64,000 nt of DNA from a virus. Below the pieces are notes generated by a model. It did not search any database. It worked only from the letters and a program-made list of their open reading frames with translations, and was not told the DNA's origin. Positions 7,821 through 42,959 of this stretch are shown one piece after another; position 1 is the stretch's first letter; the number at the start of each line of letters is the position of its first letter. Location: the IMG/VR virus record IMGVR_UViG_3300025405_000011, positions 1 through 64,000 of that record; one strand, written 5' to 3'. Made by a program: the position numbers and the translations under genes.

Positions 7821-7852
7821 AACTATGTTGTCGAAGATTCTTCGACCTAGTT
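7821..7852 (-). promoter_or_regulatory. Inverted repeat in leader of DUF932-like gene
   Basis: A perfect inverted repeat of seven bases with a three-base centre (GTCGAAG-ATT-CTTCGAC, 7830-7846) is nested inside AACTA/TAGTT (7821-7825 and 7848-7852). It lies directly downstream of the -10 box and ahead of the ribosome site. There is no T-run, so an operator or a 5'-UTR hairpin is more likely than a terminator. Confidence 0.5.
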
Positions 7853-7881
7853 AGTTTAAATGAACAGAATATACAAAACAA
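7853..7881 (-). promoter_or_regulatory. Promoter, TTGTTT-N17-TAAACT
   Basis: Minus-strand -35 box TTGTTT (7876-7881) and -10 box TAAACT (7853-7858) with 17-base spacing, identical in form to the DNA polymerase promoter at 16787-16815. The start site would fall at the edge of the inverted repeat at 7821-7852. Confidence 0.65.
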
Positions 7882-7884
7882 CTC

Positions 7885-23892: not shown

Positions 23893-24021
23893 TTACTCTT
23901 CTTTCTTTTCTTTTTTAGATATATAAAATTCTGCATTACAAAAATCACAAGTGATTAGTTCTTTGGGTTCTACTGCCCTAGAGGCTTTACTAAAGTCTCC
24001 GGTACACTCACTACACCTCAC
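23893..24021 (-). CDS. Zinc-ribbon microprotein
   Basis: A 42-residue frame starting at GTG inside a TAGTG overlap with queE. It holds CSEC at residues 3-6 and CDFC at 25-28, the two knuckles of a zinc ribbon, then a lysine/glutamate-rich tail. It fills the gap between queE and folE. Function unknown. Confidence 0.6.
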   Translation of the reverse strand: MRCSECTGDFSKASRAVEPKELITCDFCNAEFYISKKEKKEE

Positions 24022-24731
24022 TAGCGTGCACGTTCATTAGCAGGCCAGATATAGTTGTGTACTTGTACATTTAGACTCCAAGGGAGCTTGTTCTCTAGAA
24101 TTAGTTCTACTAGTTCACTAGTAGGAAACACATCCCAAGCACTACCAGCCCAGAATCGAACTCCCGGCTTGACTTCATCCTTGAGACTATTCCATACTTC
24201 AATGGCTAGTTCAAAGTCGTGTCTGTCTTTACAGACAAACTTAATACCACTACCACTACGAAGATTGAGAGCATTAGTTCTACGATTTTCTAGTTTAGTG
24301 TCCCCTTCACCAGAACCCAATAGTTTCCAGTCCATCATAAAGTTAACAGTTCTAAGAACATTCTCACTATAGATAAAACTACCATTAGAAAAACTCTCTA
24401 CTTCAAATCCTTCACTGACCAATAGCACAATGAGTTCTTCCATTTTACTATTGGGCTGTAGAAAGGGTTCTCCTCCAGTTAAACAGATATTATTGGCTCC
24501 AGTTTCTTCTCTCTTGTCTTTGCAGTCTTTGAGAAGTTCTTCTGGAGTACGCTTGTAACTACCACCTTCTGCTCCCCAGATCTTAGGATCTACAGCAAAA
24601 GGAGTATCACAAGGCCAGCCAGCACAAGTCATATTACAACCGGCAAATCTTACAAAGTGTGTAGGAATTCCGGTTCTAGGACCTTCACCCTGGGTACTAA
24701 CATAATGTTCTACTAATCTTAGATCAGCCAT
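24021..24731 (-). CDS. queE: 7-carboxy-7-deazaguanine synthase (QueE)
   Basis: A 236-residue radical SAM enzyme that contracts 6-carboxytetrahydropterin to 7-carboxy-7-deazaguanine (CDG). The cluster-binding cysteines are C32, C36 and C41 in GCNMTCAGWPCDT, preceded by the TQGEGPRTG substrate loop and followed by LTGGEPFLQ. The cysteine spacing is CX3CX4C, two residues longer at the end than the more usual CX3CX2C. It is in one operon with queD and folE. No QueC follows it, which is the key oddity of this pathway. Confidence 0.88.
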   Translation of the reverse strand: MADLRLVEHYVSTQGEGPRTGIPTHFVRFAGCNMTCAGWPCDTPFAVDPKIWGAEGGSYKRTPEELLKDCKDKREETGANNICLTGGEPFLQPNSKMEELIVLLVSEGFEVESFSNGSFIYSENVLRTVNFMMDWKLLGSGEGDTKLENRRTNALNLRSGSGIKFVCKDRHDFELAIEVWNSLKDEVKPGVRFWAGSAWDVFPTSELVELILENKLPWSLNVQVHNYIWPANERAR

Positions 24732-25239: not shown

Positions 25240-25695
25240 CTATACTCCTCTACAATAGGCCACCGATGTAGGCGTCTCCCACACGGCTACTTCATACAAC
25301 TTAAGATCGTTACCAAATTCTACCTCAATGTCGTTCTCAATCTGCTCCCAACCCCAACGAGCAATATTTTCTGCTGTAGGGATGTAGGGAAATACAATAT
25401 AGTTCCAGTCTTGCTCTTGGGAGATAGTTTCCATCATACTACGAACTATATCGTCATTTTGCCAAACAGCAAACCCATGATCTAGGACATCATGAATTCT
25501 ATTGTTCATAATTGTCTTAAGATTACCAAAGTCAATAAGCATTCCATGATCAGGACGGCTAGGGTCATCAATTATATCTCCTTCACAGGTTACTCGAACT
25601 TTATAACGGTGACCGTGTGGGTTTCGACATTTACTACCATGAGTACTAACACGGTGTCCTAGATCAAATTCGATTTCTTTACTAATAAGATTCAT
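25240..25695 (-). CDS. queD: 6-carboxy-tetrahydropterin synthase (QueD)
   Basis: A 151-residue enzyme converting dihydroneopterin triphosphate to 6-carboxytetrahydropterin, the second step to CDG. Zinc-binding histidines H14, H27 and H29 and the catalytic C23 are in FDLGHRVSTH and SKCRNPHGH. Also seen are DHGMLIDF, a later DHG, PTAENIA and WETPTS, all typical. It is the first gene after the promoter at 25717-25745 and leads an operon through queE and folE. Confidence 0.92.
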   Translation of the reverse strand: MNLISKEIEFDLGHRVSTHGSKCRNPHGHRYKVRVTCEGDIIDDPSRPDHGMLIDFGNLKTIMNNRIHDVLDHGFAVWQNDDIVRSMMETISQEQDWNYIVFPYIPTAENIARWGWEQIENDIEVEFGNDLKLYEVAVWETPTSVAYCRGV

Positions 25696-25716
25696 TCTTA
25701 CTCCTAACTAATATTA

Positions 25717-25745
25717 ATTATAGTGCTTTTATTCTTCGGGAACAA
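25717..25745 (-). promoter_or_regulatory. Promoter, TTGTTC-N17-TATAAT (queD operon)
   Basis: -35 TTGTTC at 25740-25745 and -10 TATAAT at 25717-25722 on the minus strand, 17 bases apart. The leader of about 16 bases carries AGGAG before the queD ATG. The -35 box lies within the end of the upstream gene. Confidence 0.7.
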
Positions 25746-25929
25746 CTGTTTTAAGTTTTTCTTCCCATTGCCATTGCTCAATCCAACTCTCAACAATTCC
25801 ATAGGCATGATACCGTCCTAGTTCATAGTTTAAGGGTGCATCTGAGTCATCTACATGTGGAGCAAATGCTCGTATATTATTCTTGGCTCCTGTTAATCGA
25901 AAGATCAACATCTCTACTAGATCCTGCAC
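25729..25929 (-). CDS. Hypothetical protein
   Basis: About 66 residues, helical, with a aromatic WIEQWQWEEK segment. I prefer GTG at 25929, one base after the upstream stop and behind AAAGGA; a TTG at 25944 is the longer option. Last gene of the large modification operon. Function unknown. Confidence 0.5.
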   Translation of the reverse strand: MQDLVEMLIFRLTGAKNNIRAFAPHVDDSDAPLNYELGRYHAYGIVESWIEQWQWEEKLKTVVPEE

Positions 25930-25930
25930 A

Positions 25931-26677
25931 CTAGTCCTTTCCAAATCCCTTAAAAATCTTTTTAGTTCTAAACCCAGTTTGATATAGTCTTAGAGTTTTA
26001 GGCTTTTCTGGTTTACCCTTATACTTCCACTCAAAACGATGAAATTTACGAGCACCGATAACTCCTTCACGAAGTCCCCAGCGATGTCTTTTAAACGGGA
26101 TGGCTTGTATAATTGGAGTACCTTTGGGTATAGTGCCTGTCCAACCTTTCTTTAAGACAAATGGGAAATTGACACTCATGGCATTAAAACGATCAGTGTC
26201 CACTATTCCTGGAAGGCAGTAGAAGGGTAGTTCATGTCTATGTAGAGGGTTAACCCATAGAATACTATAACCACGAGGAGCTGCTAATATATAGTCACAG
26301 TTCCATTTATGGATGGCTTCATCATAACCCTCTGGAATGGGGTAGTCAGGAATCTGCATTAAATCATGTCCACTAACTAGACTAGGAGTACAGGTAAAGC
26401 TAGTGTTATCCTCAGTTCGAGTAACAACAACATCTTCAGCAAGTGTTATAACATAGCCTACTGTTAGTGTATCCAATACCGGCATACAGAACTTTACAGT
26501 AGGTATAGACTTTCCATCATCATAGGTACCTACTGTACCATCTCCACCCCATAGTGGCATATCCCGCATCCATTTGGGCATTACTCTTAGAACAGGTTTT
26601 ACGTTCTCGATGTTGGGCTGTATACCTGGAGTCTGTCTCTTAAAGTTATGACTCATACTTACACGTATATGTTTCAT
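25931..26677 (-). CDS. Conserved protein, paralog of 41094-41828
   Basis: A 248-residue protein clearly related to the product of 41094-41828: both share a CMP-x-LD pattern (KFCMPVLDTL versus KHCMPFLDAL), a central LAEDV strand, the NPLHRHELPF / HPLNRWDLPF segment, and a G-T-I-P-K-G-T / G-K-I-P-A-G-T turn followed by QAIPFKR / QLIPFRR. The strand-rich layout suggests a beta-sandwich or cupin-like fold. One copy lies next to the aminotransferase, the other among oxygenases and a sulfotransferase, so a role in the same modification chemistry is possible. Confidence 0.7.
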   Translation of the reverse strand: MKHIRVSMSHNFKRQTPGIQPNIENVKPVLRVMPKWMRDMPLWGGDGTVGTYDDGKSIPTVKFCMPVLDTLTVGYVITLAEDVVVTRTEDNTSFTCTPSLVSGHDLMQIPDYPIPEGYDEAIHKWNCDYILAAPRGYSILWVNPLHRHELPFYCLPGIVDTDRFNAMSVNFPFVLKKGWTGTIPKGTPIIQAIPFKRHRWGLREGVIGARKFHRFEWKYKGKPEKPKTLRLYQTGFRTKKIFKGFGKD

Positions 26678-26678
26678 A

Positions 26679-27872
26679 CTAGTTTTCCTCTACTGCTGCT
26701 CTTACACGCAAGAAAGCTGCAACTAGATCTCCACTCGGAGAGTTTAGAGCAGCATATAGTCTTACAACATTGGCTCCGTATAGTACACGTCCGGTAAATA
26801 CTTTATTGTTCCAAATTCTCTGTACTAGTCCATCAATCTCTACATCAGTATCGGTATTGATCTTCATACCGAGCATAAGTCCCAATCCATGTAGACTAGC
26901 TTCAGTGCAGCCTTGAAAAGCATGTCGTGCCTGTTCACCACGAGACCTTACCTGAGCCAAAAACACTGGGTCACTAGTGGCTCGAAACATAGCATACCCA
27001 GCGGCAACACTAACAGGATTTCCTCCAAAGGTGCTCAAGTGAGTAAAGGGATTGTCTACGCTCATAGAGTTCCATCGTTCACCACTAGACAAAACTGCTC
27101 CTAGAGGATATCCACCACCAAGAGCCTTACCTAGTGTAACTATATCTGGGTGTACATCTTGATACTGATCTAGTACAAACTGAGTACCAGTTCTACCAAA
27201 ACCCGTCTGTACTTCATCAATTACCAATAGTACTCCGTGGCTCTTACACCAGTCACTAACATACTTGGCCCATTCAGGGTCAATGGGTACTACCCCAGCT
27301 TCCCCCTGTACGAGTTCCATAAAGAAAGCAGCTCGGTTTCCATATTCCTCTGGGATTTCTTCTCCCTGCTGGACCCACCGAGTAAGCTCCGGACTAACCA
27401 TATGAGCGAAAGGCTCACGATAAGTTGGCTTATAAGTGAGACTAAGACTACCGAGACTACGACCATGGAATCCATCCTTTAGTGCTATAAAACCCTGTCT
27501 CCCAGTTGAGAGAGTGGCTAACTTCATTGCTAGTTCATTTGCTTCGGTACCACTAGTACAGAACCAAGTTCTACACTCTTCGGCAATACCATTACTCATA
27601 GTTAGAGTAGAAAACCTTTCGGCAAGAGCTTCAGCATATTTCAATTGCTCTTTAATATTAAACTCACCGTAGACATTAATATGAGCATACTTCTCTACTG
27701 TCCTCTTGACTGCTTTTTGAATAGGTCCATAGTTATGACCCATATTATTAACAGCAATACCACAAGCCATATCAAACATATCACCATACTCTTTGGTATG
27801 TAGGTAGCTACCTTGTGCACCTCTAATAGTAATATCATAGGGCCAAGGATTAGTTCTCGCTAGAAAGTCCAT
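26679..27872 (-). CDS. Class III PLP-dependent aminotransferase
   Basis: A 397-residue fold-type I enzyme of the class III (omega-amino acid / acetylornithine) group, which moves amino groups between omega-amino donors and aldehydes. Motifs: TSGTEANELA at 106-115 (phosphate binding), FHGRSLGSL, ELVQGEAG, D219-E-V-Q-T-G-F-G-R, and the PLP lysine K249 in TLGKALGGG. Start chosen at MDFLART (27872); a longer ATG at 27893 overlaps more. It is the fourth gene after dpdA, directly downstream of LuxC- and LuxE-like genes, so its acceptor may be the aldehyde they produce; beta-alanine from the phage PanD is a candidate donor. Confidence 0.9.
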   Translation of the reverse strand: MDFLARTNPWPYDITIRGAQGSYLHTKEYGDMFDMACGIAVNNMGHNYGPIQKAVKRTVEKYAHINVYGEFNIKEQLKYAEALAERFSTLTMSNGIAEECRTWFCTSGTEANELAMKLATLSTGRQGFIALKDGFHGRSLGSLSLTYKPTYREPFAHMVSPELTRWVQQGEEIPEEYGNRAAFFMELVQGEAGVVPIDPEWAKYVSDWCKSHGVLLVIDEVQTGFGRTGTQFVLDQYQDVHPDIVTLGKALGGGYPLGAVLSSGERWNSMSVDNPFTHLSTFGGNPVSVAAGYAMFRATSDPVFLAQVRSRGEQARHAFQGCTEASLHGLGLMLGMKINTDTDVEIDGLVQRIWNNKVFTGRVLYGANVVRLYAALNSPSGDLVAAFLRVRAAVEEN

Positions 27873-28050
27873 CTTCTTCTTTCTTTTGTTCAATTAAAAA
27901 TAGATCTTCTGCACTATAGGGATCAATCTCGTCATAGACCCACTCTACAATAACTCTACCATCGATGGCTTTACCGACCACTTGGCCTAGACTAGTCTTA
28001 ACTGTAACTATATCCCCAACTTGAAACTGATATTCTTCATCCACTGGCAT
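27850..28050 (-). CDS. Small SH3/KOW-like protein
   Basis: A 66-residue protein with FQVGDIVTVKTSLGQ, a valine-rich strand and VEWVYDE, resembling a small SH3-like or KOW-type barrel, then an acidic tail. It overlaps both the LuxC-like gene and the aminotransferase gene. It could be a scaffold or accessory subunit of the enzymes around it. Confidence 0.55.
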   Translation of the reverse strand: MPVDEEYQFQVGDIVTVKTSLGQVVGKAIDGRVIVEWVYDEIDPYSAEDLFLIEQKKEEDGLSSEN

Positions 28051-29077
28051 CTCCTACATATATATCAAAATCATCAACAGTATCAAACTGTTCAAAGAAT
28101 TGTGGAAACTGCATATAACCGAGGTCACAAATTCTAGTAACCATAAGGTCTTCTAGTATATCATTTATTCCGTCATCTTCTCGAAGACAGGCTACTGTAC
28201 TAATACTACTATGCCACTTCTCGATAAATTCTTCTACTTCATCAAGGTAGTCTACTACACAAAATCTAGCATCTCCATATAGTGTAGTAAAAATCTCAGG
28301 ACTTATCAACTCTTCTCTGCGAATATACTTTTGTACATAATTAGCAGAGATAAATTGCTGTACTAATTCACTCTTACGAGTTAGTGGCAGTTTACCTCTA
28401 AACTGATCGACCATTTCTCCATACATAACAGTCATAATGTCACTAATTTCTTTCCATTGCTTTTCACTAACACGTCCTATAATTATATAGAACTTGGGAC
28501 TTAGGCAACCTTCTCCATAGAAAGAAAAGAAATCAAAACAAATTTCATTAATGGTAACTGGAGTAAGATCCTCAGCACGAATTATCCCAAAACTAAACTT
28601 GGGTCCATGGACGTGTACTGTTCTATGTTCACTCTCTAGACCAATAAAGGCGTCTACTGTATCTTGTCCTCCAAAGACCACTACATCAGTGGCTTCTTCT
28701 AGAGCAGTTCTCCACTCCTCAGAAAGTTTTAATTCATCACTAGCAGTATTAAAGACTTTAGTTTGAACATCTTTACCGTGATGTTCTATCACATTCTCAA
28801 TTAAGAAATATTCATCTAGAGTGGGTGCTTTAATAGTTACACTCTCGGGGCCAGCAAGCTTAAGGCATAAGAAGACACTTTTAGCAGTAGCACCAGGCAC
28901 ACTCTTGGCACCAATAATAACAAACTTTCTACCACTCTTTTCAGTATACTCTTCAAACTCCCTGGGGACCTCCATGGCCTCTATGGCCATACGATAGTCA
29001 GTCTCTAGAAATCGTCCATACTGAGAAAGTACACCAACCATATCTACTTCTGGATTAATTATCCATTGCTTGGGCAT
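28037..29077 (-). CDS. LuxC-like acyl/carboxylate reductase
   Basis: A 346-residue member of the LuxC branch of the aldehyde dehydrogenase fold, which reduces an enzyme-bound acyl group to an aldehyde with NADPH. The nucleophilic cysteine is C191 in YGEGCLSPK. Other family marks: early IIGAKSVPGATA nucleotide-binding turn (54-65), VVVFGGQDTVDAF (132-144), HGPKFSFG, and a late ICDLGYMQFP. It is shorter than LuxC of luminous bacteria (about 480), mostly at the N-terminus. There are no luciferase genes; it is interlocked with the LuxE-like gene by a 23-base overlap. Confidence 0.8.
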   Translation of the reverse strand: MPKQWIINPEVDMVGVLSQYGRFLETDYRMAIEAMEVPREFEEYTEKSGRKFVIIGAKSVPGATAKSVFLCLKLAGPESVTIKAPTLDEYFLIENVIEHHGKDVQTKVFNTASDELKLSEEWRTALEEATDVVVFGGQDTVDAFIGLESEHRTVHVHGPKFSFGIIRAEDLTPVTINEICFDFFSFYGEGCLSPKFYIIIGRVSEKQWKEISDIMTVMYGEMVDQFRGKLPLTRKSELVQQFISANYVQKYIRREELISPEIFTTLYGDARFCVVDYLDEVEEFIEKWHSSISTVACLREDDGINDILEDLMVTRICDLGYMQFPQFFEQFDTVDDFDIYVGDASG

Positions 29078-30128
29078 AAGTTAAGCTACATCCTTTCTCA
29101 GGAGCATTGGTTGCCCTTCCTTCCAATACTAGTGTTGGAGGCCCATCTGAACTATACTTAAAGTGACCCACATCTTCAGTTAATATAAAAGGACAACTCC
29201 AGATATTGGCTAGATCTACAAAGGCAATAATTCCACTTTCCCCATCTTTAACTTCAGTCTGAGTAAGTGGGTCTACTAAACGAACATTTAACCAGTTAGG
29301 CCATTCGTATTCTACTTCTTGAGAGTTACCGGTAGCATAAAGTTGGCTACTAATTTCACTCATACTATATTCTCGAATACTATCTTGAGGACTAATCCCA
29401 AAAAAGTCAGATACTCTAGCAGTTAGTTGACTAGCAGTAAGTTTAATATCTCTGCCCTTCCAACCACCAGTTTCAATAAATATAGAACCTTCTGGAAGTT
29501 TTATGGGCATTAGAGAAGAATTATTAATTGTAGTCATTAGGTCATAGAAAGCTAAACTAGTACCAAATAACAATACTGGTTCTTCCTCTTTTGCTAGATC
29601 TAATTCAATAAAACTTCTGACTCTCTGGGGGTCAGTCATTCCTTCAAAACGTTCAGTAATTCCTCTACGATCATGCTGAGCTGAGATATGTACCATCATA
29701 TAGTAGAGACTACTATTACCTAATACTGGAGTTAACAATATCACTCGATACTTGGGGAATGGAGAACCATCTACAAATGCTCTAAACCCTTCTGCAATAC
29801 TAATTCTATAGGCTTCAGTATCATACATACGATGCATACTCTTATCACCTTGAGTAGTACCACTAGAGTGAAATTCTATTCCGGGAAAGGGCATACGGTC
29901 ACTAAGTACAATACCTACATCATGTCTTTTAAACTCACTAATAGGCATAAGTGGAATTTCTCTCCAGTCAGAGAGTTCTCCAATACTATAACGCTCGTAT
30001 ACTGGATTTAATTCTCGATGTAGATCATAGAGTCCGAGTGCAATCTCACCAAACTTCTCTTGGTGTAACGGATTCCTAACAAACTCAGTAGCATTCTTTA
30101 TAGCTCTATCAATCTCGTTCTTATTCAT
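29055..30128 (-). CDS. LuxE-like acyl-protein synthetase (carboxylate activation)
   Basis: A 357-residue ANL-type adenylating enzyme of the LuxE family: it activates a carboxylic acid with ATP and passes the acyl group via a cysteine thioester to a LuxC-type reductase. Motifs: phosphate loop SSGTTQGDKS at 88-97, ETGGWKG at 219-225, YSMSEISSQLY at 254-264, TEDVG at 317-321, and the C-terminal KGCSL (C347), matching the acylated cysteine of LuxE. I chose the start at 30128, which overlaps the exonuclease stop; longer frames start deep inside that gene. In luminous bacteria the acid is myristate; here CDG is the proposed substrate by context. Confidence 0.82.
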   Translation of the reverse strand: MNKNEIDRAIKNATEFVRNPLHQEKFGEIALGLYDLHRELNPVYERYSIGELSDWREIPLMPISEFKRHDVGIVLSDRMPFPGIEFHSSGTTQGDKSMHRMYDTEAYRISIAEGFRAFVDGSPFPKYRVILLTPVLGNSSLYYMMVHISAQHDRRGITERFEGMTDPQRVRSFIELDLAKEEEPVLLFGTSLAFYDLMTTINNSSLMPIKLPEGSIFIETGGWKGRDIKLTASQLTARVSDFFGISPQDSIREYSMSEISSQLYATGNSQEVEYEWPNWLNVRLVDPLTQTEVKDGESGIIAFVDLANIWSCPFILTEDVGHFKYSSDGPPTLVLEGRATNAPEKGCSLTYAQAMDN

Positions 30129-31071
30129 TGAATAATTTCCTTCCAAATGTAGATTCGGTCCATAGTGTGCCTTTAAGCCATCTATCCTTAATACTATTAA
30201 GTTCAAAGTAATCAAACAACTTTAATAGGTGTTCTCCATGATGTGGAGTATCTGGTCCTACAGGTTTAAACTGTAAATTACCTAGAGGTGGAAATGGAAT
30301 ATCATCTAGTCCCTTTAGCTCAATTAGACTAAATGCTCTACGTACCACTTCTTCATGAGGGGAGATCTTATCATTACCTTCATTAAAGATATTGTCTAGA
30401 GAGCCATAATCTTGTATTAGTTTGGTTGCCTTTTTGGGACCAATGCCGGGGACTCCAGGGATATTGTCTCCTTTATCTCCCATAAGAGCCCAAATCTCTG
30501 GTAGTCTCCAGGGGTCTATTCCCCACTCATCTACAACTGACTCTACATCAAAGATCTCTTCTTTAGTATCTTTGCTCTGCCCTAAACTGGGCTTTACTAC
30601 AATAACGTTTTTACGAATTAATTGACGTATATCGTGATCGGCACTAACAATTACTACTTTATCAAATACTGGGCCAAAAGCAGTTGCTGCCTTGGCTATA
30701 ATATCATCTGCTTCTACATCTTGTAAGCGTAAGTAGGGTATACCCATACTCTTTACAATTTCAAAGACTAGTTCTAGTTGAGGTCTAAACTCATCAACTA
30801 CTGGTTCTTCATTTTCTTCTTTCTTACGATTACGGTTGGCCTTATACTGTGGGTCGATAGCCAATCGTTTACTACTTCTACCTTGATCAAAAGCAATAAG
30901 AACATGAGAAGGTTCGAATCTACGAATCATACTAGAAATAGTATTAATTGTACCGTAGACTCCCCAAGTACCAACTCCATCACTATTTCTTAGTTCTTGT
31001 TTCATTAATCCACTATAGCCACGAATAAAGATATTGTGTCCATCAAAGATTAGGAGTGTACTTTTATCCAT
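30121..31071 (-). CDS. 5'-3' exonuclease (FEN/T5 exonuclease family)
   Basis: A 316-residue structure-specific nuclease for removing RNA primers and flaps. Metal-binding acids are in LIFDGHN (D), AFDQGRSSKR, VEADDIIA (E, D, D), SADHDIRQL and MGDKGDNIPG, followed by the helix-hairpin-helix VPGIGPKKA. It starts inside the dpdA stop region (TATGGATAA). Its location between dpdA and luxE-like shows that replication and modification genes share one transcript. Confidence 0.9.
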   Translation of the reverse strand: MDKSTLLIFDGHNIFIRGYSGLMKQELRNSDGVGTWGVYGTINTISSMIRRFEPSHVLIAFDQGRSSKRLAIDPQYKANRNRKKEENEEPVVDEFRPQLELVFEIVKSMGIPYLRLQDVEADDIIAKAATAFGPVFDKVVIVSADHDIRQLIRKNVIVVKPSLGQSKDTKEEIFDVESVVDEWGIDPWRLPEIWALMGDKGDNIPGVPGIGPKKATKLIQDYGSLDNIFNEGNDKISPHEEVVRRAFSLIELKGLDDIPFPPLGNLQFKPVGPDTPHHGEHLLKLFDYFELNSIKDRWLKGTLWTESTFGRKLFNE

Positions 31072-31927
31072 AATACTTTTCAAACTCTCCCCACAGAAGA
31101 TTAATATCAGTAAAGCCTAGATATTGTTCCCACTGTTCTTTGGGGATCTTACAGGCAGCTAGATAGCAAGCAACATTCCAAGCAATCACTTCTTGTTCTT
31201 CTCGAGTATAAGTTCTACTAAAGTCTAATGGAGTCCAGTCTTTGTCTCTACCAAAAGAAATATTTCTAAGAGCCTTAAACTTAGTAGGGCAGGCATAGGG
31301 TGCAGTAGTATCATGACTATGCACTAGTCCTAGTTCCAGTATCTTTTTAAACATAGGATGTCTAAATAGAGTAAATAGTTCACGAACTTCTAGAGTGCCG
31401 AGCATATGAATGCCTGTACCATTACCCTTAGTAAATTCTTGACTAGTGGTCAAGTGCTCTAGAAAGCCCAATCTTTTAGCCCAGAAAGGTAACCCTTCAC
31501 TAGTTTCAGTCTTAATCTTAGTATCATAAGTGACCCCAATACGATCTACAATACCACTCTGATCCCAGAATCTATAGCTCTCTAGCCCACTTTGGAGATC
31601 TTTAGCTTGTATAACTGCCATATATTTACCATGGTAGTCAGTATCTTTCATACTCTCATAAAACTCTATACTACGCTTACGAGTTTTCTTGTCCTTATGT
31701 AGAACATCCGGAAGGATAATCCAGTTGGGCTGTAAACGTCCAGCCAAGTAGGCCAAACGAGCCCCACCTTGACCTTCTCCTAGTTCATCTGCACCATTAT
31801 CTAGAACAAGTTTGTTCATAGTCTTATAGGATTCAATAACTGTAGAATCTTTCATCTCATGAGATAAAGCATACCCTAGAGATCTTGGGTGAGATAACTT
31901 ATGGGGTTTGCCCAGATATAAATCCAT
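31064..31927 (-). CDS. dpdA: DpdA-like DNA 7-deazaguanine transglycosylase
   Basis: A 287-residue TIM-barrel protein related to tRNA-guanine transglycosylase; phage DpdA swaps guanine for a 7-deazaguanine base in DNA. Supporting features: LVLDNGADELG at 40-50 and ILPDVLHKD at 71-79 (both with the aspartates expected at the base-binding and catalytic sites), HMLGTLE at 174-180, and LVHSHDTTAP at 201-210. The four-cysteine/histidine zinc site of bacterial Tgt is not evident. Presence of FolE, QueD and QueE in the same window strengthens the call. It is the enzyme that would commit the phage-made base to DNA. Confidence 0.78.
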   Translation of the reverse strand: MDLYLGKPHKLSHPRSLGYALSHEMKDSTVIESYKTMNKLVLDNGADELGEGQGGARLAYLAGRLQPNWIILPDVLHKDKKTRKRSIEFYESMKDTDYHGKYMAVIQAKDLQSGLESYRFWDQSGIVDRIGVTYDTKIKTETSEGLPFWAKRLGFLEHLTTSQEFTKGNGTGIHMLGTLEVRELFTLFRHPMFKKILELGLVHSHDTTAPYACPTKFKALRNISFGRDKDWTPLDFSRTYTREEQEVIAWNVACYLAACKIPKEQWEQYLGFTDINLLWGEFEKYYG

Positions 31928-31928
31928 A

Positions 31929-32579
31929 TTATTTCCTTACTAGGGTAGCAGCAAAGTTCGAATACTTTTCTCGAACATCTAATTCACAATTATAGCCATT
32001 CTTTTCAGCTAGTTCAACTATTTCTTGGGGGTCATGACTATTAAAGTTACGACTCCAATCCCAGTTAGGGTCATTTAGACTTCGATTAAATTCATGTCTT
32101 TGAGAGATAAATAGAACAGCTTTATTGCTCATAGCCATAACCTTTTCTAGTAATTCTAGGGAATAGTCATGAGGCAAAGAGTCCATCATGCACAATACTA
32201 GAGTTATATCTGCTCGTATTCCTTTATCATAAGCACTCTCTATACTTTCTACTTCGAAAGAAGCATTGGGTAAGTCAGCATAAATCTCTCGAGAACCATA
32301 GATCATATTTTCAGCTAGATCAGTCCCTAGGTATTTAATATCTGGGTTAATACTTCTTAGAGTCATAGCATAAGCACAACCCACTTCATGTACCGTAACA
32401 TTAGGGTCTAGTGCATAAAAATAATCTGTAATCTCTTTGGCTTTTTCTCGAACAAAATTAACAGTCCTCTTACGGTAGAGTCCCAATACTTTCTTTTCTG
32501 TAAAATTATTCCAATACTCTTTACGTTGCTCGTCTGACAGTGTATTGATGTCAAACTTACCCAATCCTTTTTTAACCAT
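31929..32579 (-). CDS. Class I SAM-dependent methyltransferase
   Basis: A 216-residue Rossmann methyltransferase: motif I VHEVGCAYAM near residue 66 (a variant glycine loop), motif II acidic residue in YLGTDLAENM, and ITLVLCMMDSLPH as motif IV. No DPPY-type motif, so it is not a standard DNA adenine or N4-cytosine methylase; small-molecule or modified-base methylation is more likely. It sits between dpdA and the amidoligases with overlapping ends, so it may methylate the deazaguanine side chain. Confidence 0.7.
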   Translation of the reverse strand: MVKKGLGKFDINTLSDEQRKEYWNNFTEKKVLGLYRKRTVNFVREKAKEITDYFYALDPNVTVHEVGCAYAMTLRSINPDIKYLGTDLAENMIYGSREIYADLPNASFEVESIESAYDKGIRADITLVLCMMDSLPHDYSLELLEKVMAMSNKAVLFISQRHEFNRSLNDPNWDWSRNFNSHDPQEIVELAEKNGYNCELDVREKYSNFAATLVRK

Positions 32580-33438
32580 TTTTAATCATTTCTATAGTTT
32601 CTTGTGACCAGTCTCTTACATATTCTAGAGTTGGTAGTTTTTCAGTGCTTTTAATACTAAATTCTGCAATCCTTTGAATTAACTTAGGGTCTCTAGTACC
32701 CGGCCACACTCTCCATTCGAGAGTATTATAGTTCTTAGTGGGGTCCATAACAGCACCAGGGCAGATTAGTCTACGGTATTGATATAGTTCAAAACTTTGT
32801 CTAGAACCATCCGGTAGTTTATGATGCCTACGGTATTCGTAACTATATTCTTCATAGTCCTTGGTCTTCAATAGATCATTTATAAAGTCATCACTATAGC
32901 GGTAGGTCTTGGGAGAATGTTGAGAAGTTGCTGCTTCATGTACGGCTATTAATAGATACTGTGCTTCTCTTACCCACTCAGTAAATTCTAGTAATCTTTT
33001 CCAGTTTGTTTCACTCTGGGCTCCAAAGTCCACGTGAACATGTAGGTCATGAAATAGATCTGGGTCAATTTCAGCTCCATATAGATCTAGATTTAATAGC
33101 ATTTTATTAAGAGTATAAAAGTCTTCTTCCATATTTTCAGGTCTTAGTATCGGAGAGATTAGTTCTGCACCCTGCCAATATTGTCTATTGCTTTCTTTGC
33201 CTCCAACAATACTACCGTCAGGCAACATTACTAGTCTTCTACACCTAGTGCCATTATGATTGCTAATAGTTTTATCACTAGAAATATTCCAACGATCATA
33301 CCTACGAACTTTTTCACTGAGTGATACTCCTCTATCTCGCCATTCCTCAAAGGAAATCTCTTGTAATTTAAAAACTACTTGAGCAGCCTTAAGGAGATTA
33401 ATATCCCCCATCTCTATTTCTAGCCCATAAGTAGTCAT
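32572..33438 (-). CDS. Amidoligase-family protein, single domain
   Basis: A 288-residue protein of the glutamine-synthetase-fold COOH-NH2 ligase (amidoligase) group, which couples a carboxylate and an amine using ATP. Signature elements: opening YGLEIEMGD, the central LHVHVDFG, and the closing NTLEWRVWPGTRDPK with its glutamate and arginine. It is coupled to the tandem amidoligase gene upstream by TAATG. In this operon it could attach an amino acid or amine to the modified base. Confidence 0.7.
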   Translation of the reverse strand: MTTYGLEIEMGDINLLKAAQVVFKLQEISFEEWRDRGVSLSEKVRRYDRWNISSDKTISNHNGTRCRRLVMLPDGSIVGGKESNRQYWQGAELISPILRPENMEEDFYTLNKMLLNLDLYGAEIDPDLFHDLHVHVDFGAQSETNWKRLLEFTEWVREAQYLLIAVHEAATSQHSPKTYRYSDDFINDLLKTKDYEEYSYEYRRHHKLPDGSRQSFELYQYRRLICPGAVMDPTKNYNTLEWRVWPGTRDPKLIQRIAEFSIKSTEKLPTLEYVRDWSQETIEMIKNG

Positions 33439-35183
33439 TAGATATTAGGCCTTTGAGCAGTTGCTATAAAACCCTTCTCCAATTCTACATCAAAGGGAGC
33501 CCAAGTAGGAAAGTTCCATTCTCTACTCTCATAGATTCTTTTGGCTGGTCTATCTGGGTTATAGAGACCGGCTTCTACAAACTGTCTAGCAAACTCAAAA
33601 CAGTCACGAATTTGTTCTGGATCAGTAGTATTGGGGAAACATCTAAACTCTACAGTACCATGAGCAAATACACTACGAACATTAATACCTGCACGGTGTA
33701 CCCCAATATGATACTGTCTCTTACCAAGTCGTTCATTAAAGTGAAAGTGACCATCATAAAACTCTTGAGGAGTAGTAGCATCTAGAATAGCTTGCCAACG
33801 AGTGGGAGGAACTCCTTGCTTGGTCCAAAGATTTTTTTGTCTATTGAACTTCATAGCCAATGCATAATCTTGCTTGTTAGGATATTCTCCTTCTCTAGGA
33901 CGTTCACGAGGCAGCATATCAGTGAATACAAAATCTTGGTTTTTAATTGTATAGTCAAATAGACTCTTGAGTGCTTCGACATCATCTACTAGTCCTGGAA
34001 CTCCAATGTGTAGTTGTAAACTACCACGGTATAGTGCTTTGGGGTCTAGTAGGTCTCTTAGAGTAGAGGCAATCTCTACTTGTCTCTCGATAGAATCTGT
34101 TGGTAGAGTATTGATCTCTCCTCCATAAAAGTTTCTCTGGAGAGTGGGATCATTGGCTCTACCATCTGAGTTAACAATGGTCCATTCCTTGGGACTCCAT
34201 CGTCCACAGTCCTCTGGCAGTTTAATTCGAGCGTCACAGTCACTCCACTCTAGTTCAGCACCATAAGTAAAAGTTCCCAAACGCTTTTTCCTTTTCTCTA
34301 TAATCTTTTTTCTTGCTGCTGCAGCATTAGGGTCTGGGTACTCCATATACTTATGCTTGGTCGCTAGAAATCCCTTTTCTAGTTCCGGAAGGAACTCTTG
34401 CCATTGAGGGAAGTTCCAAGTTTTACTCTCATAAATTTCTCTAGCAGTTCTACTAGGATTATACAGAGCAGCTTCCATATATTGCTTGGCAAACTCTAGT
34501 GCATCTCTTACTTGCTCAGGATCTGTTGTTCCGGCAAAGACACGAAATTCTGTAGTCCCGTGCTTAAAGATTGCTCTAATGTTAATTCCAGCTCGAACAA
34601 TTCCGATGTGATAGAGTCTACGTCCGAGCTTTTCATTATACTGGAAGTGGTAATCATAAAATTCTTTACAGGTTGTTGAATTGAGAATATCTTGTGCACG
34701 ATTTAATGGTACTCCTTGTTTGGCCCAATAGTTTTGTTGACGATAGAAGTTTTTTGCTAGTTTAAGATCTCCCTTGTCTGGAAACTTTTCTTCCGTAGGC
34801 TCAGTGTAAGGAAGCATATCAAAGTATACAAAGTTTTGATTGTCTTGAGTATATTGGAACAGTTGCTTTAGTGCATCTAGGTCCTCTTTTAGACCTTCTA
34901 CTCCTACATGTACGTGTAGATTAGCCCGGTAAAAGGATAGAGGACTTAAAAGATCTCTGAGTTCAGTTACGATGGCAACTTGTTCTTCTATAGAGTCAGT
35001 TGGTTTAGTATTAATCTCTCCACCAAGATGAGTCTTTTTCATAGTGGGGTCATTGGCTTGACCATCACTGTTAACTAGAGTGGCATCATCTTTGTTCCAA
35101 GTGGCAGTAGGGGGTAGTTCTATTCTACGGTCTACATCACTCCATTCGAGCTCTAACCCATAAGTAAACTTACCCAATGTCAT
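33438..35183 (-). CDS. Tandem-duplicated amidoligase
   Basis: About 581 residues made of two amidoligase domains (roughly 1-285 and 300-581) that share a near-repeated order of motifs: FTYGLELEWSD / FTYGAELEWSD, NSDGQANDPT / NSDGRANDPT, GGEIN-x-x-PTDSIE, LHVHVGV / LQLHIGV, GINIRAIFKHGTTEFR / GINVRSVFAHGTVEFR and DPEQVRD / DPEQIRD. Catalytic-type residues look intact in both halves. Start chosen at MTLGKF (35183), 14 bases into the panD end. Together with the next gene the phage makes three such domains. Confidence 0.75.
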   Translation of the reverse strand: MTLGKFTYGLELEWSDVDRRIELPPTATWNKDDATLVNSDGQANDPTMKKTHLGGEINTKPTDSIEEQVAIVTELRDLLSPLSFYRANLHVHVGVEGLKEDLDALKQLFQYTQDNQNFVYFDMLPYTEPTEEKFPDKGDLKLAKNFYRQQNYWAKQGVPLNRAQDILNSTTCKEFYDYHFQYNEKLGRRLYHIGIVRAGINIRAIFKHGTTEFRVFAGTTDPEQVRDALEFAKQYMEAALYNPSRTAREIYESKTWNFPQWQEFLPELEKGFLATKHKYMEYPDPNAAAARKKIIEKRKKRLGTFTYGAELEWSDCDARIKLPEDCGRWSPKEWTIVNSDGRANDPTLQRNFYGGEINTLPTDSIERQVEIASTLRDLLDPKALYRGSLQLHIGVPGLVDDVEALKSLFDYTIKNQDFVFTDMLPRERPREGEYPNKQDYALAMKFNRQKNLWTKQGVPPTRWQAILDATTPQEFYDGHFHFNERLGKRQYHIGVHRAGINVRSVFAHGTVEFRCFPNTTDPEQIRDCFEFARQFVEAGLYNPDRPAKRIYESREWNFPTWAPFDVELEKGFIATAQRPNI

Positions 35184-35520
35184 AAGTAAAGGCCTTAATC
35201 TTTTCATTGTTCTGATCTATTTCCATTACTTTGGCTGGTTCATACTCTGTACTAGTTTTACGAGTAAATAGAATACACTTGTCTCCAATTTCTCCTAAAC
35301 GAGCACCTCCACCGTTTAAGTGGAACTCTCTATCTGGACCATAGAGTACATAAGTTTCCCACCGAAGACCGTTGTTAGCATTTACACAATAGATCCACTC
35401 ATATTCTTCAATACCAAGTTCCAGGCAGTAGTTTTCTGGAATAGTAACAGAACCATGGTAGTCCAAACTCTTATGAGTTACTCTAATTCCATGTAGCTTG
35501 GCTCCTACATATTGTCTCAT
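35170..35520 (-). CDS. panD: Aspartate 1-decarboxylase (PanD)
   Basis: A 116-residue pyruvoyl-dependent enzyme converting L-aspartate to beta-alanine. It aligns in order with PanD: AKLHGIRVT (K8, H10), YHGSVTI with the self-cleavage pair G23-S24, NANNGLRWETYV (R53, Y57), and LNGGGARL replacing the usual LNGAAARL. Length matches bacterial PanD with a short C-terminal extension. It is the first gene after a strong promoter and leads the amidoligase-methyltransferase-dpdA-exonuclease-luxE-luxC-aminotransferase operon, which points to beta-alanine use in modification rather than in pantothenate synthesis. Confidence 0.85.
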   Translation of the reverse strand: MRQYVGAKLHGIRVTHKSLDYHGSVTIPENYCLELGIEEYEWIYCVNANNGLRWETYVLYGPDREFHLNGGGARLGEIGDKCILFTRKTSTEYEPAKVMEIDQNNEKIKAFTYDIG

Positions 35521-35573
35521 TGTGTCTCCTATTGTTGCTGTGATTGTATAGCTTGGTTTTGTGGTTTAGTTAC

Positions 35574-35602
35574 ATTATAAACCATTAATTATCAGGATAC
35601 AA
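35574..35602 (-). promoter_or_regulatory. Promoter, TTGTAT-N17-TATAAT (modification operon)
   Basis: -35 TTGTAT at 35597-35602 and -10 TATAAT at 35574-35579 on the minus strand, 17 bases apart, in the 71-base gap between uvsE and panD. The leader to the panD ATG is about 48 bases and ends with AGGAG. It would drive the operon from panD down to about 25729. Confidence 0.7.
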
Positions 35603-36614
35603 CTAAAAGTCTTTCTTTTACAAAACGCTCTTGAGAAAGATTCTTGGCCTTACTTTCAAGTTGGATATCAAAGTCATCATGGAAACGCCAAGCCCATTGA
35701 TTACTGGCTTGGTTCCAATAGTAGTCACTATGAGCTCTTAGCTTGGGTTTATTAAAACCTTGCTTGATTAGTTCTACAAAATCAGGAGCTACATAAGGGT
35801 CATGACCTATTAGTACATCTTCACGAGGAAGGCTATAGTGAATAACAGGACGCTTGCCTTTCCAAGAGTCTACAATTCTCAATACTCTAGAGTCATCAGG
35901 CTCAATATACTCACCAGTCTTGACCCAGTGGTGATGGATATCTAGTACTAGGGGGACATGGTGCTCTAGCTTAAGACTCTCTTCAATACCCCAGTTCATT
36001 TCACTATTCTCAATAGTTATATTTTCACGAGCAGTTCTAGAAAGATAAGGTAGTGCCTCTATAATACCTCGAGCACCCATCTGACCGGCAATATGTACAT
36101 TAATCTTGACATCTAGAGGGTCAGTATAGCCCATCCAATAGACCATATCAGCATGGTATTCCATCTCGTCTATACTACGCTGAACTACATCAGGGCGGTG
36201 ACTAGCCAATACCGTAAACTCTCCAGGGTGAAAACTCAAACGTATATCATGCTCTCTAGCAAAGTCACCAATACGTCCAAAACCATCTTCAATCTTGGGA
36301 AGGATACCAGGTCTACGATATACTTCTCGCCAATAAGGTAGACTATACAGAGGCAATAGATCACTACCCAGACGAACCATATGATAGATATCGTCACGAG
36401 CAGCAACACGCTCTAGTAAAAGCTCTACACTACGAAGGTTATGCTCTAGGACCTCAATCAATTTCATATCGGCAGTATGGCCCAGATTATTATTCATCCA
36501 GGTCAAAGTAAGACTTCTAGTGCTTAATGCCCTAGCATCATCTTTGGGGCCAATACCGTTAATCTGACCATCATGGTCAATCCACTTACAACAAAAACCT
36601 ACTCGTTTTTTCAC
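35592..36614 (-). CDS. uvsE: UV damage endonuclease (UvsE/UvdE)
   Basis: A 340-residue TIM-barrel endonuclease that nicks DNA 5' of UV photoproducts. Metal-ligand motifs: RLSFHPGEFTVLAS, VKINVHIAG, ITIENSEMNWG, LVLDIHHHW and HYSLPRED. The start is GTG, directly after the upstream stop. It is the last gene of the operon that begins at 38614. A phage-borne UvsE suits a host in sunlit water, or one whose repair is shut off during infection. Confidence 0.88.
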   Translation of the reverse strand: MKKRVGFCCKWIDHDGQINGIGPKDDARALSTRSLTLTWMNNNLGHTADMKLIEVLEHNLRSVELLLERVAARDDIYHMVRLGSDLLPLYSLPYWREVYRRPGILPKIEDGFGRIGDFAREHDIRLSFHPGEFTVLASHRPDVVQRSIDEMEYHADMVYWMGYTDPLDVKINVHIAGQMGARGIIEALPYLSRTARENITIENSEMNWGIEESLKLEHHVPLVLDIHHHWVKTGEYIEPDDSRVLRIVDSWKGKRPVIHYSLPREDVLIGHDPYVAPDFVELIKQGFNKPKLRAHSDYYWNQASNQWAWRFHDDFDIQLESKAKNLSQERFVKERLLVVS

Positions 36615-37019
36615 TTACTTATCTTTCTTGGCTTCTTCTCGTTCTGATAGGCCATCTCTTACAGTATAGTAACCTCTTCTGGTCTTAACAAAGTAAAAGG
36701 GATTTTCTTTTATAGTCTTAATGGCGGTATCGTAACTTACTCCAAGTTTACGACCTAGATCAGAAGTACCATACTCTTGCTCTAAGTGAGCCAAAACCCA
36801 CTCACGAAGTTTAAGTGTCTTGTCTTCCTTGGTCTTCTTTACTAGTTGTGGAGTCTGTCCGGTTAGTTCTTCTATTAGACTCTTACTGACCATATGAGTA
36901 ACCAAACTCTCTATGACATTCCAACCGTTACGAGTGGCTTTTTCAATTATCCACTGTGCTCTTAAAACTTCTGACTTATCAAAAGTCTCTTGATAGTCTA
37001 CTTTTTCTTGACTTTCCAA
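36615..37019 (-). CDS. Hypothetical protein with C-terminal HTH-like segment
   Basis: A 134-residue basic protein. Residues about 84-105 (DLGRKLGVSYDTAIKTIKENP) read as a helix-turn-helix with a following wing containing TRRGYYTV. The start is TTG, inside the preceding gene, after AAGGAAG. It may be a regulator or DNA-binding accessory factor. Confidence 0.55.
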   Translation of the reverse strand: MESQEKVDYQETFDKSEVLRAQWIIEKATRNGWNVIESLVTHMVSKSLIEELTGQTPQLVKKTKEDKTLKLREWVLAHLEQEYGTSDLGRKLGVSYDTAIKTIKENPFYFVKTRRGYYTVRDGLSEREEAKKDK

Positions 37020-40399: not shown

Positions 40400-41097
40400 T
40401 ATTCTCCTTTGTTAAAAAATAGTTCTTTGTTAAAGTAGATCTCTGAATCAATATTGTTTAGTTCATATAGTCTATCAATTTGTTTAGTAGATAGTTGTGA
40501 AAACATAGAAGAAGAATCTTTGTTAATATTATAACCCATAGTAATAATAGTATTTTGAGGTGGAGCTACATATCGAGCATTAAAATCTCTAAGGACCCTA
40601 CGTGTTACTAGTTCCATTCTATCTCTAGTCAACTGACTATCTCTTAATAAGACTTGTATACGTTCTATCCTAGTGTCTAGTAGACTTCTATCTATTTCTA
40701 GTGACCTAAATTCATAGTTGTTGGCAAAAAAATAAGCATTACCCTGACAACTAGAGTCATCAAAAAGTAAATTCTTCACTTGATAATTACTTATAAAGCT
40801 TTGCTCTCTGTCTACCCATTGTAAAAGTCCATCTATGTCTAGTGTATAATCCTCAAAAGATTTAAACTTATCATAGAGTACATAACAAAAATGACTTACC
40901 GTTCTTTTTGCAGGATCACGAAGAGAAGTAACTATATAAGTGTCTTCCTTAACTGGTTTCCAAGCGTGATGATACTCGGAGTTAATGTTCTCTATTCCAA
41001 CTGGTTCTAGACTTGATATTAGATGGGAGAAGAGTTCAGCTTTTATATAATGGCCCCCACACTTGGGTATGTGTAAGTAATAGATATTACTATTCAT
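40399..41097 (-). CDS. Sulfotransferase-like protein
   Basis: A 232-residue protein with both PAPS-binding elements of sulfotransferases: the 5'-phosphosulfate loop HIPKCGGHYIK near residue 8 and the 3'-phosphate region SLRDPAKRTVSHF near residue 56. It would move sulfate from PAPS to a hydroxyl or amine of a glycan or small molecule. Start at the ATGA overlap (41097). It neighbours oxygenases and glycosyltransferases, suggesting decoration of a virion or cell-surface glycan. Confidence 0.72.
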   Translation of the reverse strand: MNSNIYYLHIPKCGGHYIKAELFSHLISSLEPVGIENINSEYHHAWKPVKEDTYIVTSLRDPAKRTVSHFCYVLYDKFKSFEDYTLDIDGLLQWVDREQSFISNYQVKNLLFDDSSCQGNAYFFANNYEFRSLEIDRSLLDTRIERIQVLLRDSQLTRDRMELVTRRVLRDFNARYVAPPQNTIITMGYNINKDSSSMFSQLSTKQIDRLYELNNIDSEIYFNKELFFNKGE

Positions 41098-41828
41098 CGA
41101 TAGATTTTCTTTTTCCAATGATTCTTTCGATAATAACCGTCTTCAAGTTCTTCAAGTCCAACTGTATTCCAATGTGCAGTTTTATTGAGTTCTCCATCCA
41201 TACTCTCTTTGGCTATCCACTCTTCTCTACGAAAAGGGATTAGTTGTGCTACCATAGTCCCTGCAGGAATCTTTCCAGTAAAACCAATCTTTAGATGAAA
41301 GGCCATATTGGCACCCGGACAGTTATAGTCGTCTACAACTGCACTAGTACTGATAAATGGAAGATCCCAACGATTTAATGGGTGAGTAAAGAGACAACTA
41401 TATCCATCGGGTATTCTAATAGAAACTGGAAGAGACCAAATAAAGTGCTCTTCATGATAACCCGGTGGGTGTGGAGCAGGATCAGTTATTGCAGGTGGAC
41501 GATTAGATACAGGTCCTCTTTGTTGATTGTTATGACTTATAACTATTTTACCATCTACTTCTTGTACCCAGACATCTTCAGCCAAAAATACTCCATAGCC
41601 AGTGACTAATGCATCAAGAAAGGGCATGCAATGCTTAAGTCCTGGAAGTCTTGTTCCATCAAACTCGACCCAACGTTGAGTTTGTTTATACCAGTCAGGG
41701 GTATGTCTAGACATAGTCTGTACTAGTTCATCAAATTGTTGATTTGGATATCCACCTTCCCAGAGTAGAGTGACTGGTCCTGAACTAGAGTCAGTTAATA
41801 TTTTTTTATGTTTTTTTCTAGTGAACAT
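41094..41828 (-). CDS. Conserved protein, paralog of 25931-26677
   Basis: A 244-residue strand-rich protein with the same motif order as the 25931-26677 product (KHCMPFLD, FLAEDVWV, HPLNRWDLPF, AGTMVAQLIPFRRE). The N-terminus has a HTPDWYKQ segment matching PKWMRDMP in the paralog. It lies between sulfotransferase and two Fe(II) oxygenase genes. The function of the family is unknown to me. Confidence 0.7.
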   Translation of the reverse strand: MFTRKKHKKILTDSSSGPVTLLWEGGYPNQQFDELVQTMSRHTPDWYKQTQRWVEFDGTRLPGLKHCMPFLDALVTGYGVFLAEDVWVQEVDGKIVISHNNQQRGPVSNRPPAITDPAPHPPGYHEEHFIWSLPVSIRIPDGYSCLFTHPLNRWDLPFISTSAVVDDYNCPGANMAFHLKIGFTGKIPAGTMVAQLIPFRREEWIAKESMDGELNKTAHWNTVGLEELEDGYYRKNHWKKKIYR

Positions 41829-42390
41829 TTTTATCTAGTTTCTGTTCTGAGTTATCTGTATAGTTTATAGACATAGATAGTTTTACTCCCTCAGTGATCT
41901 TTCTTACTCCGTGTACATATTGTGGTGGAAATAGCAATACACTTCCTTTAGAGGGCTTAAATTCTAAATCTAGACTGGGGAAGTAGATTTCTCCACCTTC
42001 ATACTCTTCAGGATTATTTAAGTATACTACAGAAGTGAAATTTGCTTCTGGCATATCTTCGTTGTCTATGTGGGGAACTATATATCCTCCCACTGGGTAG
42101 TAGTTAATATAGTGTTCATAATCATAGACTGCTTTAGAAGACTGTAAGAATTCAATTACTTTTCTACCACAACTACGATAGAGAGCTGTAACTGGACTAT
42201 TTACTATTTTATAGAGCAATAGCACATCTCGAGGGTTAACTAATAGTTCTGACCTATGGTCTTCATTATCACTACCACTAATCATCATATTGCCATCAAT
42301 ATAGGCTTTCCTGACATAATCTGATAAAAAGTCACAGGTTTCTTTGCCTATGAAGTCTTCTACTAGTACTACTTCACTTTCTTCTTCCAT
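41818..42390 (-). CDS. 2-oxoglutarate/Fe(II) dioxygenase, copy 1
   Basis: A 190-residue double-stranded beta-helix enzyme of the prolyl-4-hydroxylase-like group. Iron ligands: HIDNE (H, D) near residue 108 and the distal H in YVHGVRK near 161; a basic residue for 2-oxoglutarate follows. The YEGGEIYFP strand between them is typical. It is about 40 percent similar by eye to the next gene, so they are tandem paralogs. It would hydroxylate a protein, sugar or base. Confidence 0.8.
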   Translation of the reverse strand: MEEESEVVLVEDFIGKETCDFLSDYVRKAYIDGNMMISGSDNEDHRSELLVNPRDVLLLYKIVNSPVTALYRSCGRKVIEFLQSSKAVYDYEHYINYYPVGGYIVPHIDNEDMPEANFTSVVYLNNPEEYEGGEIYFPSLDLEFKPSKGSVLLFPPQYVHGVRKITEGVKLSMSINYTDNSEQKLDKNVH

Positions 42391-42392
42391 TA

Positions 42393-42959
42393 CTAATACT
42401 TTACACTTTCATCTTCAGTGTAGTTTAATGCAAGAGTTCTCTTAAATCCAGAAGTAACTTTACGAGCTTCATGCCAGTAGGTCCCTGGAAAAATTAGTAG
42501 AGTGCCCTTTTTAGGCTTAAGAACTAGATCTAGATTGGGGAAATATAGTTCTCCACCATCATAGTTCTCAGGTTCATCCAAGTATAGAACTGAAGTAACA
42601 AAGCAGTCAGGCATTTGATGATCATCTCTATGTGGAATTAAATGTCCATTTACTGGATAATAGTTAAAAAGACAGTTGTCTTTGTGTGCATAGAGTTTAC
42701 GAGAATGGCCTATTAATTCTATAGCAGAGTCCAAATGCTTACGATATGTAGAGACAAATTCTTCATCTTCTATCTGATAGGCATCTACTACTAGTCGAGG
42801 GTTTTGTAACTCTAGTTCTCTCACTTTGGGGTCTTTTACAGTAAGAGGCTTCATTCGTTGTAGTTCTAGTGCTTTGTCTAGATATCTATTATAGAGATCA
42901 CATTCTTCAAAACTAGTAAAGTCTTCATATATTCGAATTTCTTCTCTGGACTCTTCCAT
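42393..42959 (-). CDS. 2-oxoglutarate/Fe(II) dioxygenase, copy 2
   Basis: A 188-residue paralog of the next gene downstream: HRDDHQMP gives the H-x-D pair, YDGGELYFPNLD the signature strand, and WHEARKVTSGFKR the distal histidine and 2-oxoglutarate-binding basic residue. The two genes are two bases apart. The tandem duplication suggests two related hydroxylation steps or substrates. Confidence 0.8.
   Translation of the reverse strand: MEESREEIRIYEDFTSFEECDLYNRYLDKALELQRMKPLTVKDPKVRELELQNPRLVVDAYQIEDEEFVSTYRKHLDSAIELIGHSRKLYAHKDNCLFNYYPVNGHLIPHRDDHQMPDCFVTSVLYLDEPENYDGGELYFPNLDLVLKPKKGTLLIFPGTYWHEARKVTSGFKRTLALNYTEDESVKY

Follow-up and report, generated by a model that had tools for sequence, protein, structure and literature searches.

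The viral DNA analysed here, positions 1 to 64,000 of IMG/VR virus record IMGVR_UViG_3300025405_000011 (hereafter the window, the whole stretch of 64,000 nucleotides), carries a minus-strand operon that appears to encode a two-part pathway for hypermodifying a DNA base. A core route would lead from 7-carboxy-7-deazaguanine (CDG) to 7-aminomethyl-7-deazaguanine (preQ1), and an optional cassette would add beta-alanine by amide linkage. Judging from gene content, we put the probability of this reading at roughly 0.5. In the core route, FolE, QueD and QueE would produce CDG, a LuxE-like protein would activate its carboxyl group and carry CDG as an acyl-enzyme, and a LuxC-like protein would reduce the acyl-enzyme to an aldehyde. 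A class III aminotransferase would then convert the aldehyde to the aminomethyl group, yielding preQ1 without QueC and QueF, and DpdA would insert the base into DNA. In phages with the cassette, PanD would supply beta-alanine, which amidoligases would join to the base by amide bonds, perhaps as several units and with the preQ1 amine as the likeliest acceptor. The cassette methyltransferase might cap or N-methylate the product; its role is a guess. The cassette probably does attach beta-alanine to an unusual DNA base, and the joined group may be aspartate instead. The pathway is based on gene identities, gene order and co-occurrence, the failure to find QueC or QueF in any record, selection, and the folds of DpdA and LuxC; from these we infer the substrates, the order of steps, the final base, and the placing of ligation before or after insertion.

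The genes concerned are as follows, in window positions.

35170 to 35520, minus strand: PanD-family aspartate 1-decarboxylase of 116 amino acids with a G23-S24 cleavage pair (Pfam Asp_decarbox).
33438 to 35207, minus strand: tandem Amidoligase_2 protein with domains A and B, likely start at 35183 (two Pfam stretches; alignments).
32572 to 33438, minus strand: single-domain Amidoligase_2 protein, AmiC (Pfam, 40.6 bits against a cut-off of 22).
31929 to 32579, minus strand: putative cassette methyltransferase dependent on S-adenosylmethionine (SAM) (weak Pfam and PHROG methyltransferase matches).
31064 to 31927, minus strand: DpdA, a DNA guanine transglycosylase with a tRNA-guanine transglycosylase (TGT) fold (tblastn and structure model).
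30121 to 31083, minus strand: 5'-3' exonuclease (Pfam).
29055 to 30215, minus strand: LuxE-like acyl-protein synthetase, start likely at M30 (30128) (Pfam LuxE, 44.2 bits).
28037 to 29077, minus strand: LuxC-like acyl reductase (Pfam LuxC, 27 bits against a cut-off of 21).
26679 to 27893, minus strand: class III aminotransferase with K256 in LGKA (Pfam, 228.4 bits).
25240 to 25695, minus strand: QueD (Pfam PTPS, 111.8 bits; TIGR03367, 83.4 bits, under its cut-off of 89.25).
24021 to 24731, minus strand: QueE, a radical SAM CDG synthase (Pfam Radical_SAM; NCBIfam QueE families, under their cut-offs).
23324 to 23887, minus strand: FolE, GTP cyclohydrolase I (Pfam, 232.8 bits).

PanD, the tandem amidoligase, the single amidoligase, the methyltransferase and DpdA are minus-strand genes that nearly all overlap, with gaps of -95 to +1 nucleotides from PanD through LuxC, and the operon continues past DpdA through the exonuclease, LuxE, LuxC and the aminotransferase to QueD, QueE and FolE. 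This agrees with a preliminary description of the window, made from its letters, that had the methyltransferase and dpdA overlapping or adjacent behind the amidoligases, the DpdA identity now coming from tblastn and a structure model. The same description set PanD, the amidoligases, the methyltransferase and dpdA behind one TATAAT promoter. The motif is indeed present, at 35579 to 35574, 54-59 nucleotides ahead of the PanD start; the promoter itself fared less well, as a promoter scan listed no promoter-like pair and no -35 element at that site, and promoter-like sites in the region numbered 28 against 33.2 expected in shuffles. A single promoter for the operon is thus unproven. On the minus strand, the stretch from 25500 to 37000 gave no terminator-like site. 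Just upstream of the operon, at 35592 to 36614, lies a gene for a UvdE-type UV endonuclease that is matched in L002 and L022 and not in L003, L021 or L039 (we designate related records and loci by L numbers).

Scans with PanD, DpdA, LuxC, amidoligase and LuxE gathered ten virus records besides the window's own, and these 11 records represent six distinct phages: four are one phage (99.99-100% identical over 21 kb), two are another (100% over 15.6 kb), and L001 is close to the window's record (98% in DNA, 99-100% in locus proteins). L023, which has a distant DpdA match (27%) and apparently its own QueC, stands outside the counts, and megablast of the region against phages gave no match. Across these phages the core is constant and the cassette is optional. 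DpdA, the exonuclease, LuxE, LuxC and the class III aminotransferase occur in all six, and QueD, QueE and FolE follow the aminotransferase in each of the five whose contig reaches that far; the L002 contig stops within the aminotransferase, with the Que genes beyond view. The complete cassette of PanD, amidoligases A, B and C and the methyltransferase is found in three phages (window/L001, L002 and L003), always directly upstream of dpdA. One phage (L022/L007/L013) has a single amidoligase and neither PanD nor methyltransferase, and two (L021/L008-L011 and the divergent L039) have no cassette gene; the absences in L039, and those of the methyltransferase everywhere, refer to a locus of about 20 kb. 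Amidoligases thereby stand upstream of dpdA in four distinct phages. Family searches of whole records, which covered ten records other than L039, found Amidoligase_2 in 6/10 and PanD in 4/10, the latter restricted to records with the full amidoligase set and representing three distinct phages.

In a tree of four concatenated core proteins two groupings are strongly supported, one of the window, L021 and L022 and one of L002 and L003, and L039 sits on a long branch; a single clade of full-cassette carriers is rejected (approximately unbiased test, p 0.007). As these carriers do not form one core clade, the cassette appears to have been acquired or lost independently of the core while moving as one set. 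The alignment columns that split full-cassette carriers from the other three phages number three in DpdA, one in the exonuclease and two each in LuxE and LuxC, and with so few (1-3 per gene) the cassette seems to make no difference to what the core enzymes do. Because the core is kept in phages without PanD and amidoligase, LuxE, LuxC and the aminotransferase are independent of the cassette. The preliminary description had offered beta-alanine as amino donor for the class III enzyme, an idea that, as an obligatory role, we reject because the aminotransferase occurs without PanD. Purifying selection was seen in all seven genes tested (7/7). In L039 a GNAT acetyltransferase gene (7433 to 8089 of that record) sits just upstream of dpdA, the place that the cassette takes elsewhere, and its product might acylate preQ1.

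The cassette proteins themselves largely match their earlier assignments. PanD scores 83.5 bits against the Pfam Asp_decarbox cut-off of 25 over almost its full length, and its G23-S24 pair, together with K8, H10, R53, T56 and Y57, is invariant across three distinct copies; it falls below the NCBIfam panD equivalog cut-off (61.8 against 106 bits). Its nonsynonymous divergence (dN) of 0.12-0.28 lies far below that at synonymous sites, which are close to saturation, indicating that the gene is under selection. The double-domain and single-domain amidoligases are confirmed by Pfam Amidoligase_2, with two domains in 33438-35207 and one in 32572-33438. Domains A and B are 59% identical to each other and are two separate genes in L002 and L003; comparison with relatives suggests that the true start of the tandem protein is probably 35183. 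AmiC is 73-76% identical to the L002 and L003 copies. The methyltransferase resembles SAM methyltransferases at scores under the Pfam cut-offs, and is 81% identical to its copy in L002 and 57% to that in L003. A 2023 study by Cui reportedly described four further 7-deazaguanine derivatives from phages, including a methylated preQ1 made by a methyltransferase. In L003 a fourth, distinct amidoligase lies between the methyltransferase and dpdA (13653 to 14435 of that record) and gives, at 70 bits, the top Pfam match among the amidoligases scanned.

In the core, DpdA has no Pfam match; tblastn aligns it with an annotated phage DNA guanine transglycosylase (DpdA) at E 2e-6 over 104 residues, and its structure model (predicted local distance difference test, pLDDT, 76.6) finds tRNA-guanine transglycosylases in 50 of the 50 PDB matches listed. 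The exonuclease always lies between dpdA and luxE, in the same place in L002, L003, L021, L022 and L039. The LuxC-LuxE fatty-acid reductase of luminescence activates an acid to an acyl-enzyme and then reduces it to an aldehyde, and the phage proteins keep both the LuxE and LuxC profiles and the candidate catalytic cysteines. A LuxE profile built from three sequences aligns to most of Photobacterium LuxE (7xc6_E), including its C-terminal KGCSL, whose cysteine, C376 here, is invariant in five copies. The LuxC model (pLDDT 71.0) matches the aldehyde dehydrogenase (ALDH) superfamily, and C191 in YGEGCLSPKF is invariant in six copies. By analogy with the Lux literature, C376 and C191 are the candidate acyl carriers. 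The phage system differs from luminescence in that an aminotransferase, with K256 invariant in four copies, follows LuxC, in that the substrate is likely an aromatic acid, and in that LuxE falls under the NCBIfam equivalog cut-off for fatty-acid-specific LuxE (43.9 against 550 bits). No LuxC relatives were found in an 84,980-species genome collection, and neither LuxC nor LuxE relatives in 50,697 phage records, by pattern-seeded scans that can miss distant ones.

QueC was found in 0/11 records, with a control positive in 12/14 genomes, and QueF in 0/11, with a control positive in 8/14, in records that may be incomplete. QueE has the motif CX3CX4C in the window (as C-N-M-T-C-A-G-W-P-C), L014, L021 and L022, an odd spacing for a radical SAM cluster, and CX3CX2C in L039 and L023. 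The DpdA-dependent 7-deazaguanine modification described in the excerpted text of Hutinet 2019 (PMC6884629) has FolE, QueD, QueE and a TGT-fold DpdA in common with the window; here, LuxE, LuxC and the aminotransferase stand in an operon without QueC or QueF, and the cassette of amidoligases, PanD and methyltransferase is extra. That excerpt also reports the deoxynucleoside of preQ1 (dPreQ1) measured in the DNA of phages Dp-1 and HVTV-1 and ascribed to QueF-type enzymes. The LuxE-LuxC-aminotransferase route is our strongest new lead, the preliminary description having been silent on LuxE and LuxC and on the optional nature of the cassette.

Further evidence comes from amidoligase relatives outside the group. 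A scan for A/B-type amidoligases returned 72 loci, five from this group and 67 others. Homologues of the thymine-hypermodification proteins ADDT, P-loop kinase, class II glutamine amidotransferase (GAT) or Tet/JBP oxygenase occur at 63/67 outside loci, a count that overstates independence, to the cost of our reading, because clustering at 50% identity of 77 loci (the 72 plus L027, L028, L002, L003 and L022) puts 57/77 in one cluster. The 11 clusters comprise one with this group, seven of thymine type, one with Vibrio phage 2.275.O and two without such genes. By a Pfam check, L045 and phage Simon each have ADDT and thymidylate synthase, and L111 has ADDT, GATase_6 and Tet_JBP; a match to 5-hydroxymethyldeoxyuridine (hmdU) kinase in L045 lay slightly under the cut-off. 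Thymine-hypermodification neighbourhoods (ADDT, hmdU kinase, Tet/JBP oxygenase, class II GAT) have in common with the window a related amidoligase, for the most part 29-39% identical; the present group differs in having class II GAT in 0/9 records, and ADDT was also seen in 0/9, in a search whose control was itself silent. In the 7-deazaguanine cluster of Vibrio phage 2.275.O, a related amidoligase (29% identity by tblastn, 32% in alignment) directly precedes QueF, and a transporter, a queuosine protein, a GAT-like protein and FolE come next. That cluster differs from the window's in its classical QueF and queuosine protein, and no PanD is annotated in the stretch examined.

Since the relatives sit in thymine-hypermodification loci and beside QueF, and amidoligases lie upstream of dpdA in four phages, the amide-linked base hypermodification proposed in the preliminary description is well supported by comparative genomics, if unproven. 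A broader proposition is that the acyl-enzyme route replaces QueC and QueF, that the swappable cassette makes (oligo-)beta-alanyl amides, and that the amidoligase family, acting on thymine in other phages, is a general maker of amide bonds on DNA bases; we advance it tentatively, with the odds against it.

The alternative that survives best has the amidoligases activating the CDG carboxyl and joining it to the amine of beta-alanine, after which LuxE, LuxC and the aminotransferase would convert the free end carboxyl to give a 3-aminopropyl amide of CDG. There is bench precedent for amide ligation on a DNA base in CmoY, a phage ligase proven, in the excerpted account of the CmoX/CmoY system (PMC12783734), to link glycine to the base carboxyl of carboxymethylcytosine. 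The likeness is a phage ligase that bonds an amino acid to a DNA base as an amide; the base is another one, the ligase is asparagine-synthetase-like rather than Amidoligase_2, and PanD is not mentioned in that excerpt. Thymine loci pair the amidoligase with ADDT and class II GAT, suggesting a base-borne carboxylate and a small amine, and here PanD could take the place of GAT, found in none of the nine records searched, in supplying the amine. Against this, LuxE, LuxC and the aminotransferase are kept in phages without amidoligase, so that the trio would need different substrates in different phages, LuxE and LuxC are unchanged with the cassette, and the Vibrio relative adjoins QueF, an enzyme that forms preQ1. 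We therefore consider ligation to the CDG carboxyl unlikely, with an appreciable chance of being right. For one beta-alanine step, it and ligation to the preQ1 amine give the same elemental formula (MH+ 367.1724).

Several further points weigh against the two-part pathway through preQ1. It is a prediction from gene sequences. Matches to DpdA in other phages span less than half of the protein. To our knowledge LuxE homologues act on fatty acids, which CDG hardly resembles. QueC, QueF or preQ0 could come from the host, in which event LuxE, LuxC and the aminotransferase might have other work. CmoY and the likely logic of ADDT plus GAT point to a carboxylate on the base, not an amine, as the acceptor. 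L050, L051, L052 and L104 have none of the base-modification genes sought, and the 67 outside loci, many of them short, gave no match to 7-deazaguanine or Lux queries, an absence that alone speaks against a dedicated 7-deazaguanine role.

The remaining alternatives seem improbable. LuxE, LuxC and the aminotransferase could yield some other product, a small amine or a precursor of a glycan, with the base coming from host preQ0 or staying CDG; one paper about the glycosylation of flagella mentions both LuxC and LuxE, and the window has two glycosyltransferase-like genes (by eye). We give this little credence, as even L039, the most divergent phage, has the trio placed between dpdA and QueD-QueE-FolE. 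It is just as improbable that PanD serves the host's pantothenate and coenzyme A (CoA) supply as an auxiliary metabolic gene, placed beside the amidoligases incidentally. Pantothenate synthesis is the usual role of PanD, and phage Jace has a 42% identical PanD whose scanned neighbours (a ParB-like protein, an AAA/GNAT protein and part of a CoA-transferase) include no amidoligase. PanC, however, occurs in 0/9 records, for which reason we reject PanD as part of a pantothenate gene set, and PanD is present exactly in the records with all amidoligases, as first gene of an overlapping operon in three distinct phages. With no amide ligase among its scanned neighbours, the Jace PanD was also set aside as support for amide ligation; of 15 PanD records found, Jace alone was examined, and H3-H14 (12, most looking like bacterial DNA) and Achromobacter phage 2-1 (H15) were left out. 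Least probable is action of the amidoligases on peptidoglycan or proteins: Amidoligase_2 is a broad family and an excerpted paper puts forward phage GGCT, ATP-grasp and amidoligase modules as putative (PMC11945000), but the GGCT-type partner (GGACT domain) occurs in 0/9 records and the nearest relatives lie in DNA-modification loci.

If the two-part pathway is correct, it would provide a second biosynthetic route to preQ1, with carboxylate reduction and transamination in place of the nitrile, and a DNA base that bears a beta-alanine amide. It would also give a function to a large uncharacterised family of phage amidoligases, tied to hypermodification of both guanine and thymine bases, and its substrates would be directly testable with a few purified proteins. 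Literature searches, which covered open-licence PMC papers, turned up no account linking LuxE or LuxC to 7-deazaguanine or Amidoligase_2 to the modification of bases.

Other genes in the window deserve brief mention. Those at 25931 to 26677 and 41094 to 41828 encode proteins of unknown function that are paralogues (35% identical, E 4e-30); the former, directly behind the aminotransferase, matches phrog_7084 and is unmatched in the other five phages' loci. Two adjacent 2-oxoglutarate-Fe(II) oxygenases lie at 41818 to 42390 and 42393 to 42959; of the loci compared, the near-identical L001 alone has matches to them, and their target could be the base or a glycan. Finally, the gene at 45044 to 45475 encodes what we take, from a motif seen by eye, to be a WhiB-like small protein, a hint of an actinobacterial host.

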